From a virus, in IMG/VR virus record IMGVR_UViG_3300034283_003158, positions 1-24,706 of that record: a stretch of DNA of 24,706 bases; one strand, 5' to 3'. A model generated the notes under the pieces. That model was not told where the DNA came from. It saw only the letters and a program-made list of their open reading frames with translations, and ran no database searches. Position 1 is the stretch's first letter; the number at the start of each line of letters is the position of its first letter. A program made the translations under genes and the position numbers. Below are positions 556 to 21,813 of the stretch, piece after piece.

Positions 556-783
556 GTTCAAAATATTAAAGCACAGATAAATCTGATATCAATAGAATTT
601 TACAAACTAAGCTATGTACTTTGGACCAATGGAACTGATGTAATTTCCAGATATCGCTGCCAAAAAAATCAATTGAAAAAGTGGTTACAAAACTATGACG
701 CTGCACTAAGTGAAAGTGCTAACATGTTCAATCACAAATACAGGCGTTTTTGGGACTGTGGTAATTGGGTTTTAAAATTCTAA
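556..783 (+). pseudogene. 3' remnant of a homing-endonuclease-like gene
   Basis: This short open frame has no plausible start, but its end matches the C-termini of the two large endonucleases in this window. It reads ...YVLWTNGTDVISRYRCQKN... and ends KYRRFWDCGNWVLKF, against WDRVWDCGQDTWIWIA (820-2601) and YDRIWDCGQSTWIWHK (8511-10250). The YW/LW-T-N segment followed by a basic QK stretch also lines up with YWYTNYKQRF in the intact gene. Only about 65-70 residues of C-terminal domain survive. It is not a simple duplicate of the neighbouring endonuclease, since its sequence is quite diverged. Most likely it is what is left of an older element at this locus. Confidence 0.62.
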
Positions 784-819: not shown

Positions 820-2601
820 ATGTTAGAACAAATACAACAAATGGTACAAGAATTGAGTCCCAAAAGTTATGGTAGATGGATCGCCAGCAGACCAGACTTA
901 CTACAATGGATTCAGCAGCAGCAACAAGATCTAAATACAAAATCAATTTCTGAAACTGTGTATTGTGTGATTAATCAGTGCAAACCCACTATGTGTGCTT
1001 GTGGTCAACCTGCTGTGTTCAACTCTGTGGTCAAAGGCTACAGAAAATTTTGCAGCCTAAAGTGCCCACAAAAGGGTCAAAAACACAGCCAAACCGTTCA
1101 ACAAATGTGGACTGATTCTGACAAATTACAGCAGATGGTTGAAAATCGCAAAAAAACTTGTTTGCAAAAGTATGGGGTAGAAAACGCTGCACTACATCCA
1201 GACATCAAAGAAAAGACCCGACAAACTGTGCAAGCAAGATGGGGTGCTGATACTCCGTTTGAAAGTGAAATAGTACAACAAAAAGCTGCACAAACAAATT
1301 TGCAAAAGTATGGCGTGGGAAAGCCACTTCAAAGTAAGGCGATTCAGCAAAAAACTAAAGACAGTTTTAAGCGCAATCATGGATTTGCTAACAAGATGCA
1401 ATTGGCTCGTGCAGCTTGGGAAAATCAGCATGGTGACACTAACCCATTTGAGATTGAAGCAATCAGGAATCGTGCTTTTGATACCATGATGAAAAAATAT
1501 GGAGTTAAGTATGCATTTCAAGATCCCGATTTATTCCAAAAACATGTAAGCACACATTTACAAAATTGGGGTCGTGCTAATAACGCACAAACGCACTTAT
1601 CTGACGAACAATATCAAATATTAAACAACCCTGAACAATTAAAAGCGTTGCTTGAAACAAAATCGTTAAGCCAAGCAAGTGTAGATACTGGTATTAGAAA
1701 ATCCTTAATACAGCGTTATCACGATCGATATCACATGGATGTTATCCCCAAGCAAAGCAGAAGCAGTTTTGAAGACGAAATTTCGAAATTTTTAGATCAG
1801 CACAACATTAGCTATCAGAAAAACAACAGAAAAATTATTGCTCCTCTAGAGTTAGATTTTGTAATAGATGACCGAATTGCTATTGAGTTTAATGGGTTGT
1901 ATTGGCATAGCGAGATTGCTGGTAAAAAACACAGGAAATACCATCAACAAAAAATGCAGCAATGTGAGGCAAAAGGTATTACTTTGCTGACTATTTGGGA
2001 CGACGAGTGGAGTGAAAAATCACAAATTTGTGAATCAGTTATTTTGTCCTACTTAGGTAAAAATCAAAAAATCGCAGCTAGAAAATGTGAAATTAAAGAA
2101 ATCTCCAATGCAGAAATCAAACATTTTATAGATCAAAATCATTTGCAGTCTCACAGTAATGCTAGTGTTAATCTTGCGTTATTTTATGAAGATCGTATTG
2201 TTTGCGCAATGACGTTTGCTCATTCACGTTATAACAAAAATGTAGAATGGGAATTGCTTAGAGCTGTTAGTGAAATAGGATGTGTTGTACAAGGTGGAAT
2301 GAGTAAGTTATGGAATCACTTTGTTAAAAATTATGCACCTAAATCAGTGGTGAGTTACTGTGATCGCAGATGGTTTACTGGAGGTATTTACGATCAATTA
2401 GGGTTTATAAAGAAAGTGAGCGGTGAGCCCACATATTGGTATACCAATTACAAACAACGTTTTCATCGAAGCGGTTTCACAAAGAAATCGTTAATTGACC
2501 GTGGCGCGGATGCTAATTTGTCTGAATGGAGGATCATGCAGCAATCTAAATGGGATCGAGTTTGGGATTGTGGTCAGGATACCTGGATTTGGATTGCATA
2601 A
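820..2601 (+). CDS. Large homing-type endonuclease (KYG-repeat, PD-(D/E)XK/Vsr-like core)
   Basis: 593 residues. The N-terminus carries a Cys cluster (CACGQP, then CSLKCP) that may bind zinc. Residues about 115-245 hold repeated KYGV-x(8)-I-x-x-K units, typical of modular DNA-binding regions in phage homing enzymes, followed by a helix-turn-helix-like stretch (LSQASVDTGIRKSLIQRY). The nuclease core is FEDEISKFL...LELDFVI...IAIEFNGLYWHSE, with acidic residues and a His arranged as in PD-(D/E)XK/Vsr-like (EDxHD) enzymes. The last 170 residues resemble a GNAT-like fold (MTFAHSRYN, SYCDRRWFTGGIYDQLGF) and end in the WDCGQDTWIW motif. It has its own late promoter and GAGG site, and sits alone on the + strand between the endolysin and capsid genes, as a free-standing homing gene would. 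A homologue lies at 8511-10250. Fold assignments are inferred from motifs. Confidence 0.78.
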   Translation: MLEQIQQMVQELSPKSYGRWIASRPDLLQWIQQQQQDLNTKSISETVYCVINQCKPTMCACGQPAVFNSVVKGYRKFCSLKCPQKGQKHSQTVQQMWTDSDKLQQMVENRKKTCLQKYGVENAALHPDIKEKTRQTVQARWGADTPFESEIVQQKAAQTNLQKYGVGKPLQSKAIQQKTKDSFKRNHGFANKMQLARAAWENQHGDTNPFEIEAIRNRAFDTMMKKYGVKYAFQDPDLFQKHVSTHLQNWGRANNAQTHLSDEQYQILNNPEQLKALLETKSLSQASVDTGIRKSLIQRYHDRYHMDVIPKQSRSSFEDEISKFLDQHNISYQKNNRKIIAPLELDFVIDDRIAIEFNGLYWHSEIAGKKHRKYHQQKMQQCEAKGITLLTIWDDEWSEKSQICESVILSYLGKNQKIAARKCEIKEISNAEIKHFIDQNHLQSHSNASVNLALFYEDRIVCAMTFAHSRYNKNVEWELLRAVSEIGCVVQGGMSKLWNHFVKNYAPKSVVSYCDRRWFTGGIYDQLGFIKKVSGEPTYWYTNYKQRFHRSGFTKKSLIDRGADANLSEWRIMQQSKWDRVWDCGQDTWIWIA

Positions 2602-2666: not shown

Positions 2667-3851
2667 TTAGATGAAGCTGATGTTGCTCATTGTGATTTCA
2701 CCAACATAATCACCGGCATTACCCAGTGATGATGCTGTATTGGTTAGTTCCACATAACCATAACGTGTCATGAAGCTCACAACTGGTTCAAAGCTGCTGG
2801 GATCCAACACAACGCCACTGCTCATCAATGGGATGTATGGGCAGTAGAACGCAGCAGCATCGCTTTCGCTAGCACCCTTGTATCCTACCAGCACAGCAGT
2901 ATTATCGCTAGCATAAGTGTCAACGTAAACCTTCATTGCACCGTTCAAAGTACCAACAAACTTGGTGTTAGTTGGGGCTTCGAAAGTACCTTCAGTTGTA
3001 CGAGCAAATGCTGAAGTTGTTGCGCTCTGGAGCACAGTGAGAGCCTGTGGGCTCACAACTGCCCAGTTACCAGCACCACGGCGGGTGCGCTGAGCAATCT
3101 TGTTAGCAACGCGGTTGATCAACACAGCCAGGGCGGCATGTTCGTCACCAACAAATGTTGCAGTACCACTTACATTCAACTGGTTGAAAACTTCTTCAGT
3201 TGCAGCCAGGGCACGCAGGCTACCCAGGATTTCCTGATCGATTTCAGCAGTGATTTCCTGAGCCAGGGCTGCCATGATTTCGGCTTCCACGTCAATGCCG
3301 TGCATAGCCTGTGCATCCTGAGCAGCTTCAAATGTCCAACGTGCGCTCAGCTTGCGAGTCTTGGCTTCCACCATCTGCTTCAGGATCTGAACGTTCAGCT
3401 TGCTTCCAGCAACGCCTTCAAGTGCGCTGGTAGTAGCAGCCTTGCCAGTGGCAGTGCTGCCGCTGTAAGCAGTGGCAATCTTGAATGGGCTCAGTGCTTC
3501 GTCACCAGCAGTGGTGTCGGTGTCGAATGGAGCACTGGCTGTGCTGTTTACACTTTCAGCGTAGCGAACACGCAGAGTGTGGATCTGACCCACAGGGCCA
3601 GTCATGGGCTGGACGCCCACGATTTCATTAGCAATAACAGTGGGCATCACACGGCGGATGACTGGTAGAATCACGCGATTCAGCGTAGCGATGTTACCAG
3701 CAGCAGTTGCTCCAGTACCAGCAGTTTCCACCAAATACTTGCGAGTATTTTCCAGCACCACACTCATGTTGTTGCGGCGAGTTCCCTGCAAGCCTTCTAG
3801 CAGGGCGTCCTTGGTGTCATTCCAACGACCTTCCAATAAAATGTTACCCAT
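2667..3851 (-). CDS. 23: Major capsid protein (T4 gp23-like)
   Basis: 394 residues, the shell-forming protein of the T4-like head. The region LNRVILPVIRRVMPTVIANE followed by IVGVQPMTGPVGQIHTLRVRYAE is the family signature at residues about 58-105. The C-terminal part (YGYVELTNTASSLGN) is also typical. It is shorter than T4 gp23 (521 residues). A sequence KYLVE|TAGTG near residue 42 fits the T4 prohead protease rule (I/L-x-E), suggesting removal of an N-terminal delta piece by the protease encoded at 4969-5607. The ATG is preceded by AAGGAGA, and it is the last gene of the head cassette, closed by the hairpin at 2616-2650. The symbol follows T4 numbering. Confidence 0.93.
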   Translation of the reverse strand: MGNILLEGRWNDTKDALLEGLQGTRRNNMSVVLENTRKYLVETAGTGATAAGNIATLNRVILPVIRRVMPTVIANEIVGVQPMTGPVGQIHTLRVRYAESVNSTASAPFDTDTTAGDEALSPFKIATAYSGSTATGKAATTSALEGVAGSKLNVQILKQMVEAKTRKLSARWTFEAAQDAQAMHGIDVEAEIMAALAQEITAEIDQEILGSLRALAATEEVFNQLNVSGTATFVGDEHAALAVLINRVANKIAQRTRRGAGNWAVVSPQALTVLQSATTSAFARTTEGTFEAPTNTKFVGTLNGAMKVYVDTYASDNTAVLVGYKGASESDAAAFYCPYIPLMSSGVVLDPSSFEPVVSFMTRYGYVELTNTASSLGNAGDYVGEITMSNISFI

Positions 3852-6796: not shown

Positions 6797-6804
6797 TATT
6801 TATA
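6797..6804 (-). promoter_or_regulatory. Late promoter box TATAAATA overlapping the portal stop codon
   Basis: A perfect T4 late consensus on the minus strand. It includes the portal TAA stop (6800-6802) and ends five bases before the ATG at 6791. With the T4 spacing, transcription would begin at or next to the A of that ATG, so a late transcript would be leaderless. Confidence 0.5.
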
Positions 6805-8491
6805 CCTCTGGTGTGGCTGCTGCACCACCTGCTGGGGCTTCAGCTGGTGCTGCTTCGGGTGCCGGAGCTTCAGCACCGGGTTCTGGTGACGTCAATCCGG
6901 TGATATCGGATTCAATACCAGCAGGACTGATGCCCACATTTCTGAGATTGACATCATCCTCTACAGAATCCTCAGCCTTGAGATTTTCTTCACGCCATAG
7001 CTGAGTGTTTTCCAACATTTCCTCTTCGCTTAGGCCCAGATAACGCTTGAGCAAGAATCGCTTGCTCATGTAGGGCACAGCTTCCAGCTGACTAAAACTG
7101 GATATTTTCGCAGCATCCAGCTCTGATTGACGATACTTGGCAAAGTTTTGTGGTTCATTCATCTTTAGTTCAAACATCGTATTGTCTATGTTCAAACCAC
7201 GCCACTTCATAAATGCCTTGAACTCAGTGTCCAGCGTGGCGCAGAGCAGAGCCTGTAACCTCTTACAATACTGATTAAACCGATGTTCTTGTATCAGTGC
7301 TGTTGCTACTTTGCCATCATTGTGTATTGCTGCACTGTCTTCAGCGCCAGTGGGCAAATAGCTGCTGGGAATTCGCAACCCTCTGAACAGCTTGTTGGTA
7401 AAGAACTTCAGATCATCAATTTCGCCCAGGTTTTGTCCGCCTGGTAGTGTTTCCACTTTGCTACCACGCCCTTCAGCAGTCTGTGGGAAGAAGTAGTCCT
7501 CGTTAATACTCAATGGATTGTAAGTTGAGTCCATGAAGCTCTGTCCACCGCTTTGTGTGGGAATTCTGCGCTGATGTATTTCGTTCTTAACACGTTCCAC
7601 AAATGCCATGGCCATGTGCGCAGGCATGCTACCCACGTCAATGTAAAACACACGACGTTCTGGGGCTCTCTGCACACGGTAAATCACAATGGAATCTTCC
7701 AGCAATTCCTTTTGTTTGTACACTTTAAAGATGTTTTCCAGAACACTCTGCCCAAAAGGCCAGTTACTATCCAGGCCTTCAGTCAAACTCAGATGTACTA
7801 TGTGCTGAGCTTCAATAGCCACCTCTTTTATCCCGTGTGCAAAACGACTGTTAGTGGTGTAGGGGTTATTGGGCATGTTATATGCAGCAGCACCATAACC
7901 ACTAGTGTTGGGCATGGTGTGGTAGATGTTATCAGCAGTGACCTGAGTTACTGTTAGGTTTTCAAAGTTGGGATTGATGTTTCTTAGAATATACTGTTCA
8001 GGACGCTTGCCATCGCTTTCATTTACAATGATTTTAACCACATTGGTCATGTCTACCCAAAACATCTTGAAGGTTTCTGGATCACGCAAAAATACCTGAT
8101 CACCGTACTTCAGAGTGTTTCTGAATATCTTGAACATGCGTTTGTCCAGTTCATTAAGAGAACACCAAGCACTCAGCTGTTTTTTAATAATGCTGACTTC
8201 AGTTTCAGTGGGTTTGTCTTTGAAGAACAAATCAAATGGTGTATTGTTCTGTTCGTTTTTTTGAGTACAGAATTCACTAATGATGTCCAGAGCACTATTT
8301 ACTTCGCTGTCAATGTCCATGGCTTCATATTGGTTATAGCGTTCCAGACGATTAGGGTGTCCCATGTAAACTTCAGGCAATAGACTGCCGTAGTTTTGAA
8401 ACTTGAAGTTATTCTGAGCACCAACACTAGCACCATTGATCGGGCTCAACACTCCACCAGATGCTGCTTTGAAATATTTCTTCCAAGACAT
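6800..8491 (-). CDS. 20: Portal vertex protein (T4 gp20-like)
   Basis: 563 residues, close to T4 gp20 (524). Forms the dodecameric ring through which DNA is packaged and to which the tail neck joins. Family features: N-terminal MSWKKYFKAASGG, YEAMDIDSEVNSALDIISEF near residue 55-75, FKVYKQKELLEDSIVIYRVQ and RAPERRVFYIDVGSMP near 255-295, and FFTNKLFRGLRIPSSYLP around 360. The C-terminus carries an extra Ala/Pro/Glu-rich tail (APAPEAAPAEAPAGG). The ATG is preceded by AGGAA at 8501-8505 and a CATAAATA late box at 8512-8519. It starts the head cassette. A damaged copy of its first 22 codons remains at 10302-10369. Confidence 0.93.
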   Translation of the reverse strand: MSWKKYFKAASGGVLSPINGASVGAQNNFKFQNYGSLLPEVYMGHPNRLERYNQYEAMDIDSEVNSALDIISEFCTQKNEQNNTPFDLFFKDKPTETEVSIIKKQLSAWCSLNELDKRMFKIFRNTLKYGDQVFLRDPETFKMFWVDMTNVVKIIVNESDGKRPEQYILRNINPNFENLTVTQVTADNIYHTMPNTSGYGAAAYNMPNNPYTTNSRFAHGIKEVAIEAQHIVHLSLTEGLDSNWPFGQSVLENIFKVYKQKELLEDSIVIYRVQRAPERRVFYIDVGSMPAHMAMAFVERVKNEIHQRRIPTQSGGQSFMDSTYNPLSINEDYFFPQTAEGRGSKVETLPGGQNLGEIDDLKFFTNKLFRGLRIPSSYLPTGAEDSAAIHNDGKVATALIQEHRFNQYCKRLQALLCATLDTEFKAFMKWRGLNIDNTMFELKMNEPQNFAKYRQSELDAAKISSFSQLEAVPYMSKRFLLKRYLGLSEEEMLENTQLWREENLKAEDSVEDDVNLRNVGISPAGIESDITGLTSPEPGAEAPAPEAAPAEAPAGGAAATPEV

Positions 8492-10301: not shown

Positions 10302-10369
10302 TGTTCTGCCGTTCACTGGACTGAGTTGACCACCAGCGTTTGCTGTTCTGAAGTATTTTTCCAAGACAT
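10302..10369 (-). pseudogene. Relic duplicate of the portal gene 5' end
   Basis: Read on the minus strand, an ATG at 10369 follows AGGAAAAAAGA and opens with ATGTCTTGGAAAAA, as the portal gene does. Restoring one missing base after codon 4 gives MSWKKYFRTANAGGQLSP, against MSWKKYFKAASGGVLSP in the portal protein; similarity stops after about 22 codons. As it stands the frame shifts and ends early. An AATAAATA box at 10387-10394 mirrors the late box of the intact gene. It lies just upstream of the second endonuclease, so it is best read as the old portal start left behind when that gene was inserted. Confidence 0.8.
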
Positions 10370-10386
10370 TCTTTTTTCCTATTCAG

Positions 10387-10394
10387 TATTTATT
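10387..10394 (-). promoter_or_regulatory. Degenerate late promoter box AATAAATA of the relic portal start
   Basis: AATAAATA on the minus strand just after the tape measure coding end, followed by ACTGAATAGGAAAAAAG and the relic ATG. The arrangement matches that in front of the intact portal gene (8512-8519). It could still fire and read into the second endonuclease. Confidence 0.4.
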
Positions 10395-16833: not shown

Positions 16834-17907
16834 TTAATCTGTAGGCTTAAATTTACAATTTTCGAAATGATATCTTTTCATGTTAGCAGCACCACCTGTT
16901 TTTTTACAATATACACATGTTGCTGTTTTTTTCTTATGCCCTTTAGAAGCTTGACTTAGTTTTTCTCCAAAACCATCAGGCTTTGGTTTTCCTTTGGAGC
17001 TTTTGCTTATGTTTTGCTTCCAAGCATCAATCTCCTCTTCGGTCATCTTGTAAAAACAAGGTTTGTTAAACATTCCATTTTTTTCCCCACGGTGAATTCT
17101 GCGCTTGTCATTTTTCCATTTTAATTTAGTTTCTTCAGTATGTTTCTTTCCAAACATTCCGTTTTCGTCACCGCGTTTTGGACATTTTTCACGCAAAATT
17201 TTTTTAATTTGAATGGATTTCTCTTCTCCAAAAAGTCCTTCATATTTTTTATTTTTATTATATGGTTCTTTTCCGTATTGAGGATTGTTTTTTCCTCTAG
17301 AATACATATTTAAAAAAGTTTCTCGTTCTTCATCATTCATTAGTCTATGAAGATAATGACTTTCACCTGAATAATACAGTTCATTTAATTTTTTCATCTC
17401 ATCACTAGATAATAGGGCTCTCCAGTGAGGGTTATTTTTATATCTCTCAGTTAAACTATTACTTATTTTTAAGCGAGTTTCTTCCAAGTGTTCTTCTGGT
17501 GGTATAAACTTTATGGCACCAATATGGCGATTGAAGTATTTTGGAGTCGACTGATTGGGCAATTTTGCTCTCAACACGTCTTCAAAAATTTGTTTTCTGA
17601 CCTCTTCATAAACTAACGAGCCTCTTGTTTTATGTAAGGATTCAATATAAAACAGATAATTTTCTTTTCCTTTACTAGAAATACATTGATTTAATAATTC
17701 AGATGAACCAGTGTACGATTTCCAATCAGATTCTTTTTTAATCCTTTTTTTATTCTTCTTACCTTTTACTGTTTTTCTTAAATACTGATGAAATTGCTTT
17801 TTGCCTATGTATTCTTTACCTGTATCACATTCAACTATGCGGTAGATAAATCCAAACCATTCATCAATATTAAACTCTTCAGGAAAAATCCAATGTCCGA
17901 TGTCCAT
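16834..17907 (-). CDS. GIY-YIG homing endonuclease inserted in a resolvase-like gene
   Basis: 357 residues. The N-terminal GIY-YIG nuclease domain shows FGFIYRIVECDTGKEYIGKK (residues about 18-37), a basic loop, then WKSYTGSS and a Glu-containing EEVRKQIFEDVLRAKLPNQS region. The middle has NUMOD-like DNA-binding segments (KISNSLTERY, GKNNPQYGKEPYNK, GDENGMFGKKHTEETKLKW, GEKNGMFNKPCFYKM). The end holds a Cys/His cluster (CVYCKKTGGAANMKRYHFEN followed by C), typical for Seg-like and cyanophage-type enzymes. The ATG has AGGAG at 17913-17917, inside a hairpin with a late promoter as its loop. It splits a gene coding a PD-(D/E)XK protein. Flanks are too short for a group I intron, so this is a free-standing insertion. 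Confidence 0.86.
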   Translation of the reverse strand: MDIGHWIFPEEFNIDEWFGFIYRIVECDTGKEYIGKKQFHQYLRKTVKGKKNKKRIKKESDWKSYTGSSELLNQCISSKGKENYLFYIESLHKTRGSLVYEEVRKQIFEDVLRAKLPNQSTPKYFNRHIGAIKFIPPEEHLEETRLKISNSLTERYKNNPHWRALLSSDEMKKLNELYYSGESHYLHRLMNDEERETFLNMYSRGKNNPQYGKEPYNKNKKYEGLFGEEKSIQIKKILREKCPKRGDENGMFGKKHTEETKLKWKNDKRRIHRGEKNGMFNKPCFYKMTEEEIDAWKQNISKSSKGKPKPDGFGEKLSQASKGHKKKTATCVYCKKTGGAANMKRYHFENCKFKPTD

Positions 17908-20820: not shown

Positions 20821-21813
20821 CTAAAAAGGTTTAAAACCGGTATAAAACGCTGCTGCTATAAGTGCGCTACAGGGTATAGTAATAACCCAGGCCATCACTA
20901 TGCGACGAGCAGTTTTCCACTTCACATTGGGTTCTGTTTCGCTCGCACCCACGCCCAAAATACCACCAGTAATAGTATGAGTAGTACTGACGGGAATGCC
21001 CATGCTACTAGCAATAAACAACATAATACTACCACCAGATTCCGCACAAAATCCTCCTCTGCTGTCCAGCTTGGTTAACTTAAACCCCAGTGTGTCAACG
21101 ATTCTCCAACCACCAGCCAATGTGCCCAACCCAATGGCCAAAAAGCTGGCCAGTATTACCCAGTAGGGTATAACATCAGTGGCTTTGAGCTGGCCGCCAG
21201 CCACCAATATCAGGAAAATAATTCCAGCAGTTTTTTGTGCATCATTGGCACCGTGACCCATGCTATAACATGCACTGCTGGCTAACTGGGCCCACCGAAA
21301 CTTCTGATCCAGCGTTTTATTGGTTGTGGGCCAGATAGCTCTGGCTGCTGTATTGATACCCGCACCCAGCATAAATCCAATCACTGGGCTCAGCACAATA
21401 AAAGAACCAATCTTCACGATGTTATCCCAAATCAGTGGGTCTGTACCGGTTTTGCACACAGTTGCTCCGATGAGTCCACCAATCAGTGCGTGACTGCTGC
21501 TGGTAGGCAATCCATAATACCAAGTGATCATGTTCCAGGCAATAGCACCCATTAGACATCCAAAAATCACATTGAGGTCAACCACGCTGGGTTGAACAAT
21601 GCCTTTGCCGATGGTGGCAGCCACGTGATTGCCAATAAAAAACACCGAGACAAAGTTAAAGACAGCAGCCATGGCCACTGCCTTTCTGGTGCTCAATGCT
21701 CCTGTGGCCACCACTGTGGCTATGCTGTTGGCTGCGTCATGAAAACCATTGGTGAAATCAAAAACCAATGCTATAAAAATTAAAAATAAAATACTGACTA
21801 ATACTGGGTCCAC
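20821..21813 (-). CDS. PiT-family inorganic phosphate transporter
   Basis: 330 residues, about ten hydrophobic segments. Carries both halves of the PiT/PHO4 signature: DFTNGFHDAANSIATVVATG near residue 19-38 and SMGHGANDAQKTAGI near 190-205, plus GLPTSSSHALIGGLIGA and GIPVSTTHTITGGILGVG, the paired helix-reentry repeats of the family. It would import phosphate with H+ or Na+ through the host inner membrane. Starts at GTG with AGGAG inside the end of the gp55 gene, one base apart from it, so it belongs to the gp55-gp47-gp46 operon. No damage is seen. This is a host-derived auxiliary metabolic gene; phages more often carry pstS or phoH. Confidence 0.93.
   Translation of the reverse strand: MDPVLVSILFLIFIALVFDFTNGFHDAANSIATVVATGALSTRKAVAMAAVFNFVSVFFIGNHVAATIGKGIVQPSVVDLNVIFGCLMGAIAWNMITWYYGLPTSSSHALIGGLIGATVCKTGTDPLIWDNIVKIGSFIVLSPVIGFMLGAGINTAARAIWPTTNKTLDQKFRWAQLASSACYSMGHGANDAQKTAGIIFLILVAGGQLKATDVIPYWVILASFLAIGLGTLAGGWRIVDTLGFKLTKLDSRGGFCAESGGSIMLFIASSMGIPVSTTHTITGGILGVGASETEPNVKWKTARRIVMAWVITIPCSALIAAAFYTGFKPF

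Follow-up and report, generated by a model that had tools for sequence, protein, structure and literature searches.

Hef-like homing endonucleases are free-standing enzymes encoded beside essential phage genes, and described representatives include U5 Hef, the Acj9 enzyme, F-LimIII, F-LimVII, F-LimVIII and F-LimX of LIMEstone1 and those of Campylobacter phage IBB_35. The reported cleavage target of U5 Hef is nrdB (PMC2988022), and F-LimVIII is reported to lie between the tail tube and portal genes (PMC3296691). From another direction, a fusion of Mom with a nuclease (REase) in jumbo phages has been described as a predicted restriction-modification device, and phage PA5oct has been credited with five momylating enzymes (Iyer et al., 2021; PMC7824862). 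PA5oct contains five places of the Hef-like family, and the matching count suggests that the five momylating enzymes are its five Hef-like genes. One family thus apparently figures in two literatures, where annotators write of Hef and assume homing, whereas the paper on Mom-REase fusions assumes restriction-modification. The present data speak for homing in the case of the gene and for descent from Mom in the case of its C-terminal tail, which raises the testable question of whether a homing nuclease can be self-protected by modifying DNA.

Hef-like proteins beside capsid and portal genes

The window, the whole stretch of DNA analyzed here, is a 24,706-base IMG/VR virus fragment carrying a T4-type head cluster which includes major capsid and portal genes (PHROG matches). 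Two intact open reading frames encode proteins of 593 aa (P1; 820–2601, plus strand) and 579 aa (P2; 8511–10250, minus strand). P1 is convergent with the major capsid protein gene (2667–3851, minus strand), a site occupied by the Hef-like family in other phages as well, while P2 lies in the same orientation as the portal gene (6800–8491, minus strand), its probable target, and 19 bp upstream of it. The two proteins are paralogues which align end to end with 32% identity and 50% positives over 618 columns, and PHROG homing-endonuclease families match most of the length of each. As the initial annotation had proposed, they share four modules. The Cys region lies at the N-terminus and is followed by KYG repeats, which match DUF7487, then by a Vsr/EDxHD-like core and finally by a GNAT fold at the C-terminus, and the motifs LYWHSEIAG, SYCD, WYTxYKQR and WDCG are present in the sequences. 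Its assignment of both proteins to the homing class holds, but it overlooked that this architecture is the one of a known family: tblastn and profile comparisons, which covered proteins annotated as Hef with the U5 Hef sequence outside the set, reveal a full-length relationship, and by sequence P1 and P2 belong to the Hef-like homing endonucleases. A second class of homing nuclease is represented in the window by a SegE-type GIY-YIG endonuclease with a NUMOD3 motif (16834–17907, minus strand). Elsewhere, a 330-aa open reading frame (20821–21813, minus strand) gives the impression, from its sequence, of a phosphate transporter, and Rfam and tRNA scans of the whole window returned no matches.

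The Cys region of P1 (C59, C61, C78 and C82; 994–1065) may bind metal; P2 has Cys residues at positions 61, 80, 86 and 88, and the region is weakly conserved within the family (majority fraction 0.24). It is followed by the repeat array (1156–1575 in P1; 9666–9953 in P2), which is likely DNA-binding and matches Pfam DUF7487 with E-values of 3.6e-26 and 5.3e-17, respectively. P1 contains seven [KRHNQ][YWH]G repeats (residues 117, 140, 163, 186, 203, 226 and 249) spaced 17–23 residues apart, and P2 contains four. Shuffled sequences (2000 for each protein) gave mean counts of 0.9 for P1 and 0.8 for P2 with maxima of 4 and 5, so that the count in P2 is less striking taken alone.

The nuclease core extends from 1762 to 2034 in P1 and from 9066 to 9350 in P2. 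Used alone, it matches the catalytic domain of I-Bth0305I (3r3p; E = 9.4e-7), and further matches are found to Pfam REase_MTES_1575, below the family cut-off, and between P2 and the TIGR vsr profile (E = 0.013). In a non-redundant alignment of 47 rows comprising P1, P2 and their IMG/VR relatives, residues E344, D346, E356, H363, Y374, H375, K378 and W397 (P1 numbering) are invariant. Twelve more divergent members from named phages all retain D346, E356, H363, H375 and K378, and eight of them retain E344. The deposited 3r3p chain has Ala opposite D346 and H363, so the mapping of the EDxHD residues is insecure. Secondary structure is predicted as helix, three strands, helix and strand. On the strength of these sequence matches and of the predicted secondary structure, the core is a predicted Vsr/EDxHD-like nuclease, in agreement with the Vsr-like core of the initial annotation.

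Insertion sites, lineages and decayed copies

Matches to P1 occur in 418 of 50,697 phage records, and a single plasmid record among 72,556 has a family match; the family is therefore essentially phage-borne. Its members are free-standing genes at conserved phage loci, present or absent among relatives. Of 80 capsid-anchored loci, 52 include 2 kb or more of sequence beyond the capsid gene on its downstream side, and 28 include as much ahead of the portal gene. A full-length family gene follows the capsid gene in 3 of the 52 loci (two of which, L016 and L021, seem to represent a single phage), with a fragment in one, and precedes the portal gene in 1 of the 28. A separate set was anchored on the tail and consists of the best 80 of 343 loci found with the patterns Y[WAF]YT... 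and [DY]R[IV]WDCG. Here, a portal gene immediately follows P2 and seven other members, all of which share its orientation (spacing between a 3-bp overlap and 49 bp). Another seven come right after the capsid gene in sense (gaps of 14–143 bp), and P1, together with its relative L088 (70%), occupies that position in antisense. The family also neighbors capsid genes in the named phages PA5oct, Abraxas, phiA8-29 and pSal-SNUABM-02, and the Acj9 member sits between nrdA and nrdB.

The eight portal-upstream and seven capsid-downstream members form separate groups on a maximum-likelihood tree of core and tail, where the portal group has a support of 89/94 without L111, whose placement is open. Site labels in four states could be given to 18 rows of the tree, including one protease-site row, the other 29 of the 47 rows being unlabeled. 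These labels require three changes, the least possible number, as opposed to at least six in 300 shuffles, and each lineage is therefore tied to one site.

Some carriers also retain scars of insertion. Between the stop of the tape-measure gene and P2 lies a portal-start-like fragment (10310–10393, minus strand), a frameshifted portal-gene 5′ end which probably represents target sequence left by insertion; one of its frames reads EKYFRTANAGGQLSPVNGRTL, followed by a stop. This fossil scores 51 against the present portal start of the same phage (shuffle maximum 27–30) and higher against the native portal starts of two other phages (62 for L063 and 61 for L042). P2 may thus have arrived together with its own portal 5′ end, the old start being left behind, which would place the insertion point inside the portal gene. 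A second portal fossil, in L100, scores 33 against a shuffle maximum of 27, and in L103 an exact 38-bp repeat, derived from just beyond the capsid-gene stop, is found on both sides of the family gene. Flank duplication was therefore seen in 3 of the 15 carriers tested (eight at the portal and seven at the capsid gene), namely P2, L100 and L103, with 12 negative, and a search for such a duplication beside P1 found none.

Decayed copies were found as well. Directly upstream of P1 lies the decayed C-terminus of a third family member (556–780, plus strand; E = 4.4e-11), which is nearest to the Hef of Campylobacter phage IBB_35 (46.5% over 43 residues) and indicates that this spot was invaded at least twice. 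Two sister phages of about 79% identity (L102 and L105) keep only a frameshifted P1 end; their tail decayed once the nuclease was gone, and it therefore shows no visible independent benefit.

Several arrangements among the relatives may be mentioned in addition. Campylobacter phages CP81, F207, F361 and F341 carry 9–11 tail-family places per genome of about 130 kb, and in another phage a pair of family genes occurs in adjacent, tail-to-tail arrangement close to a capsid gene (L126:2846–6142). Portal genes with an in-frame insert occur at L004:11985–13772, L091:4589–7651 and L111:4604–7672, and in L091 and L111 the insert matches HNH endonuclease families and is therefore probably an intein; the portal gene thus seems to draw several unrelated mobile elements. 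Judged by the DNA patterns of the family, the interpretation of P1 and P2 as homing endonucleases is well supported.

The C-terminal tail and its relation to Mom

The tail (2050–2598 in P1; 8514–9068 in P2) is predicted by AlphaFold2 to adopt a GNAT fold (pLDDT 93.6), and a structural search with the model likewise retrieved GNAT proteins, in line with the GNAT-like domain suggested initially. In Foldseek, the top solved structure for the tail alone is phage Mu Mom (8bv8; E = 4.4e-8, the next entry having 5.4e-5), which is again the best solved structure when the whole protein is used. VIA-align superimposes the tail on Mom over 140 residues (Z = 13.4; 3.3 Å), a score with which many ordinary GNATs tie, and yields Z ≥ 8 for 894 of the 999 chains compared. 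Since Mom is tied with so many ordinary GNATs, the fold alone says GNAT, while it is the sequence profiles which say Mom.

Among the 47 tails, 24 have a Pfam Mom match at E ≤ 0.1 (the best being 5e-8), although the P1 tail (E = 0.0039) stays below the curated cut-off, and 32 match phrog_1384 at E ≤ 0.01. An ordinary GNAT Pfam family matches a single one of the 47 tails, and a generic acetyltransferase reading of the tail was accordingly rejected as too broad. The description of the tail as acetyltransferase-type in the initial annotation was thus right about the fold but too general, the relation to Mom having been missed. A hhalign comparison of a 14-sequence Mom profile with the tail profile gave a probability of 98.4% (E = 9.6e-15 for that single pair), whereas the Mu Mom sequence alone against the tail profile gave a non-significant 2.5%. 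A search of PDB sequences with the tail-alignment profile returned nothing useful, with one ribosomal protein at E = 0.55; Mom surfaced only via the fold, the Mom families or a Mom profile. Taken together, sequence profiles and predicted fold provide good support for the tail being, by descent, a Mom-family GNAT domain.

In the hhalign pairing, Mom residues H58, E108, R111, D149 and Y159 (241-aa numbering) correspond to H441, E478, R481, D515 and Y524 of P1. Mutants of Mu Mom in H48, R101, D139 and Y149 (231-aa numbering, equal to H58, R111, D149 and Y159) are reported to be impaired. All five P1 residues are invariant across the 47 tails, which were retained by a redundancy filter from 75 proteins (P1, P2 and those of 73 of the 80 loci, open-ended or short ones having been dropped). 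With the 12 named-phage members added to these 47 rows, P1 and P2 included, H441, R481, G492 and Y524 are kept in 59 of 59 proteins and E478 is Glu or Asp in all of them. D515 is kept in 54 of 59, being replaced by Asn, Gln or Ala in five of the 12 named-phage members (Asn in Acj9 Hef and Gln in PA5oct). S495, the likely counterpart of Mom S124 in a part where the alignment is uncertain, is Ser in 29 of the 47 tails and Gly in P2; the title of entry 8bv8 calls Mom S124A “inactive”. H441, R481, G492, D515 and Y524 are absent from the search patterns, whereas WDCG and Y541 are invariant by construction, being part of the patterns. G521 is a further residue of the Mom-type tail. The active-site look is thus largely kept in these sequences, with one key position drifting, and the Gly-rich loop with its invariant G492 is suggestive of acyl-CoA binding. 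The mean majority fraction is 0.58 for the tail and 0.56 for the nuclease core. Most pairs are saturated at synonymous sites in a per-domain dN/dS comparison, which therefore speaks for general purifying selection and nothing beyond it.

A GNAT-like domain on a homing enzyme had been called unexplained in the initial annotation. For jumbo phages, an explanation of the Mom-nuclease fusion is in print (PMC7824862), and two Acinetobacter phage records are annotated “nuclease/acetyltransferase”, so the fusion as such was already known.

Possible roles of the tail and comparison with known systems

The features described above can be combined into one proposed mechanism. P1 and P2 would act as free-standing Hef-like homing endonucleases. 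Contacts to a long target would be made by their Cys region and KYG repeats, and the Vsr/EDxHD-like core would cut the copy of the neighboring essential gene in a co-infecting phage, that is, the portal gene for P2 and most likely the capsid gene or its flank for P1. Repair from the carrier would then copy the homing gene across, the homing itself being suggested by the DNA pattern. The tail would most likely still be an acyl-type transferase which modifies an adenine in or near the same target, and a carrier whose target was incompletely destroyed by the insertion would thereby be spared from its own enzyme. This explanation as a whole, homing nucleases with a Mom-family tail which modifies their own target for self-protection, is given a probability of roughly 0.5.

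Its parts differ in strength. Among the possible roles of reading DNA, modifying it or protecting the target, the kept active-site-type residues favor modification, although the chance that the tail still modifies DNA is about even. Protection of the target in the carrier itself is a more tentative proposal, with less than even odds. The invariant His, Arg, Tyr and Gly positions and a conservation equal to that of the core count for a DNA-modifying, self-protecting tail, while two observations count against it: D515 and S495 drift, and the tail decayed in the two sister phages. Homing nucleases normally need no modification domain, which also counts against the proposed mechanism. A speculative extension, on balance doubtful, is that of a self-protecting homing endonuclease in one chain, where a shared DNA-reading array directs two activities, the nuclease and a modifier of the Mom type, to a single long site. 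The target in the carrier would then be marked, and only rivals lacking the mark would be cut. If so, phage marker exclusion would work like a single-site restriction-modification system moving by homing.

A serious rival, likewise possible but not favored, is a non-catalytic tail which lost its catalysis or never used it and serves as a DNA-contacting or positioning domain, with self-immunity provided, as for other homing nucleases, by disruption of the target. The replacement of D515 in five of 12 named members, the variability of S495 and the joint decay of tail and nuclease would all fit such a domain, and EDxHD enzymes are reported to usually make extended, multi-part DNA contacts (PMC3943268). 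However, a scaffold would be expected to need less conservation than the tail displays, with its majority fraction matching that of the nuclease core and H441, R481, G492 and Y524 invariant in all 59 proteins. It is these positions which keep modification by the tail the favored reading. The restriction-modification device proposed by Iyer et al. (2021; PMC7824862) for jumbo-phage Mom-REase fusions, in which the Mom domain shields all phage DNA, the nuclease attacks host or rival DNA and homing is incidental, agrees with the conserved Mom residues but appears improbable, as lineages tied to single sites, duplicated flanks, patchy occurrence and decayed copies fit a mobile gene and up to 11 places per genome fit transposition better than genome-wide protection. 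Least probable is acylation of a protein (e.g., host RNA polymerase) or a small molecule as by ordinary GNATs, which the GNAT fold and VIA-align scores of N-acetyltransferases as high as that of Mom would allow, but for which the profiles (Mom in 24 of 47 tails, the ordinary family in one) and the lack of any reason for fusion to a DNA nuclease leave little room.

An open-licence literature search found no paper joining Mom with homing endonucleases, the one text containing both words (PMC13232217) having them in unrelated places. Joining the homing and Mom readings in one enzyme may be new, and if the tail protects, homing and restriction-modification would be joined in an enzyme common in phages. 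The described Hef-like enzymes resemble P1 and P2 in being free-standing beside essential genes, but P1 and P2 occupy capsid and portal sites and not nrdB, and the best-matching place reaches 60% identity to P1 in none of the matching records from the phage collection. I-Bth0305I has a related EDxHD/Vsr-like catalytic core (E about 1e-6), but its structure covers the catalytic domain only, with the two Ala substitutions noted above. The jumbo-phage fusions contain the same domain pair as P1 and P2 but are read as restriction-modification, and the word “homing” is absent from the text of that paper (Iyer et al., 2021; PMC7824862). Phage Mu Mom (8bv8, PF25680, phrog_1384), finally, shares with the tail the GNAT fold and the conserved H, E-x-x-R, S-[FY]-x-D and G-x-x-Y positions at about 17–19% identity, and differs in being free-standing where the Mom-like domain of P1 and P2 is fused to a nuclease, and in having NSES roughly where the tail has its Gly-rich loop.
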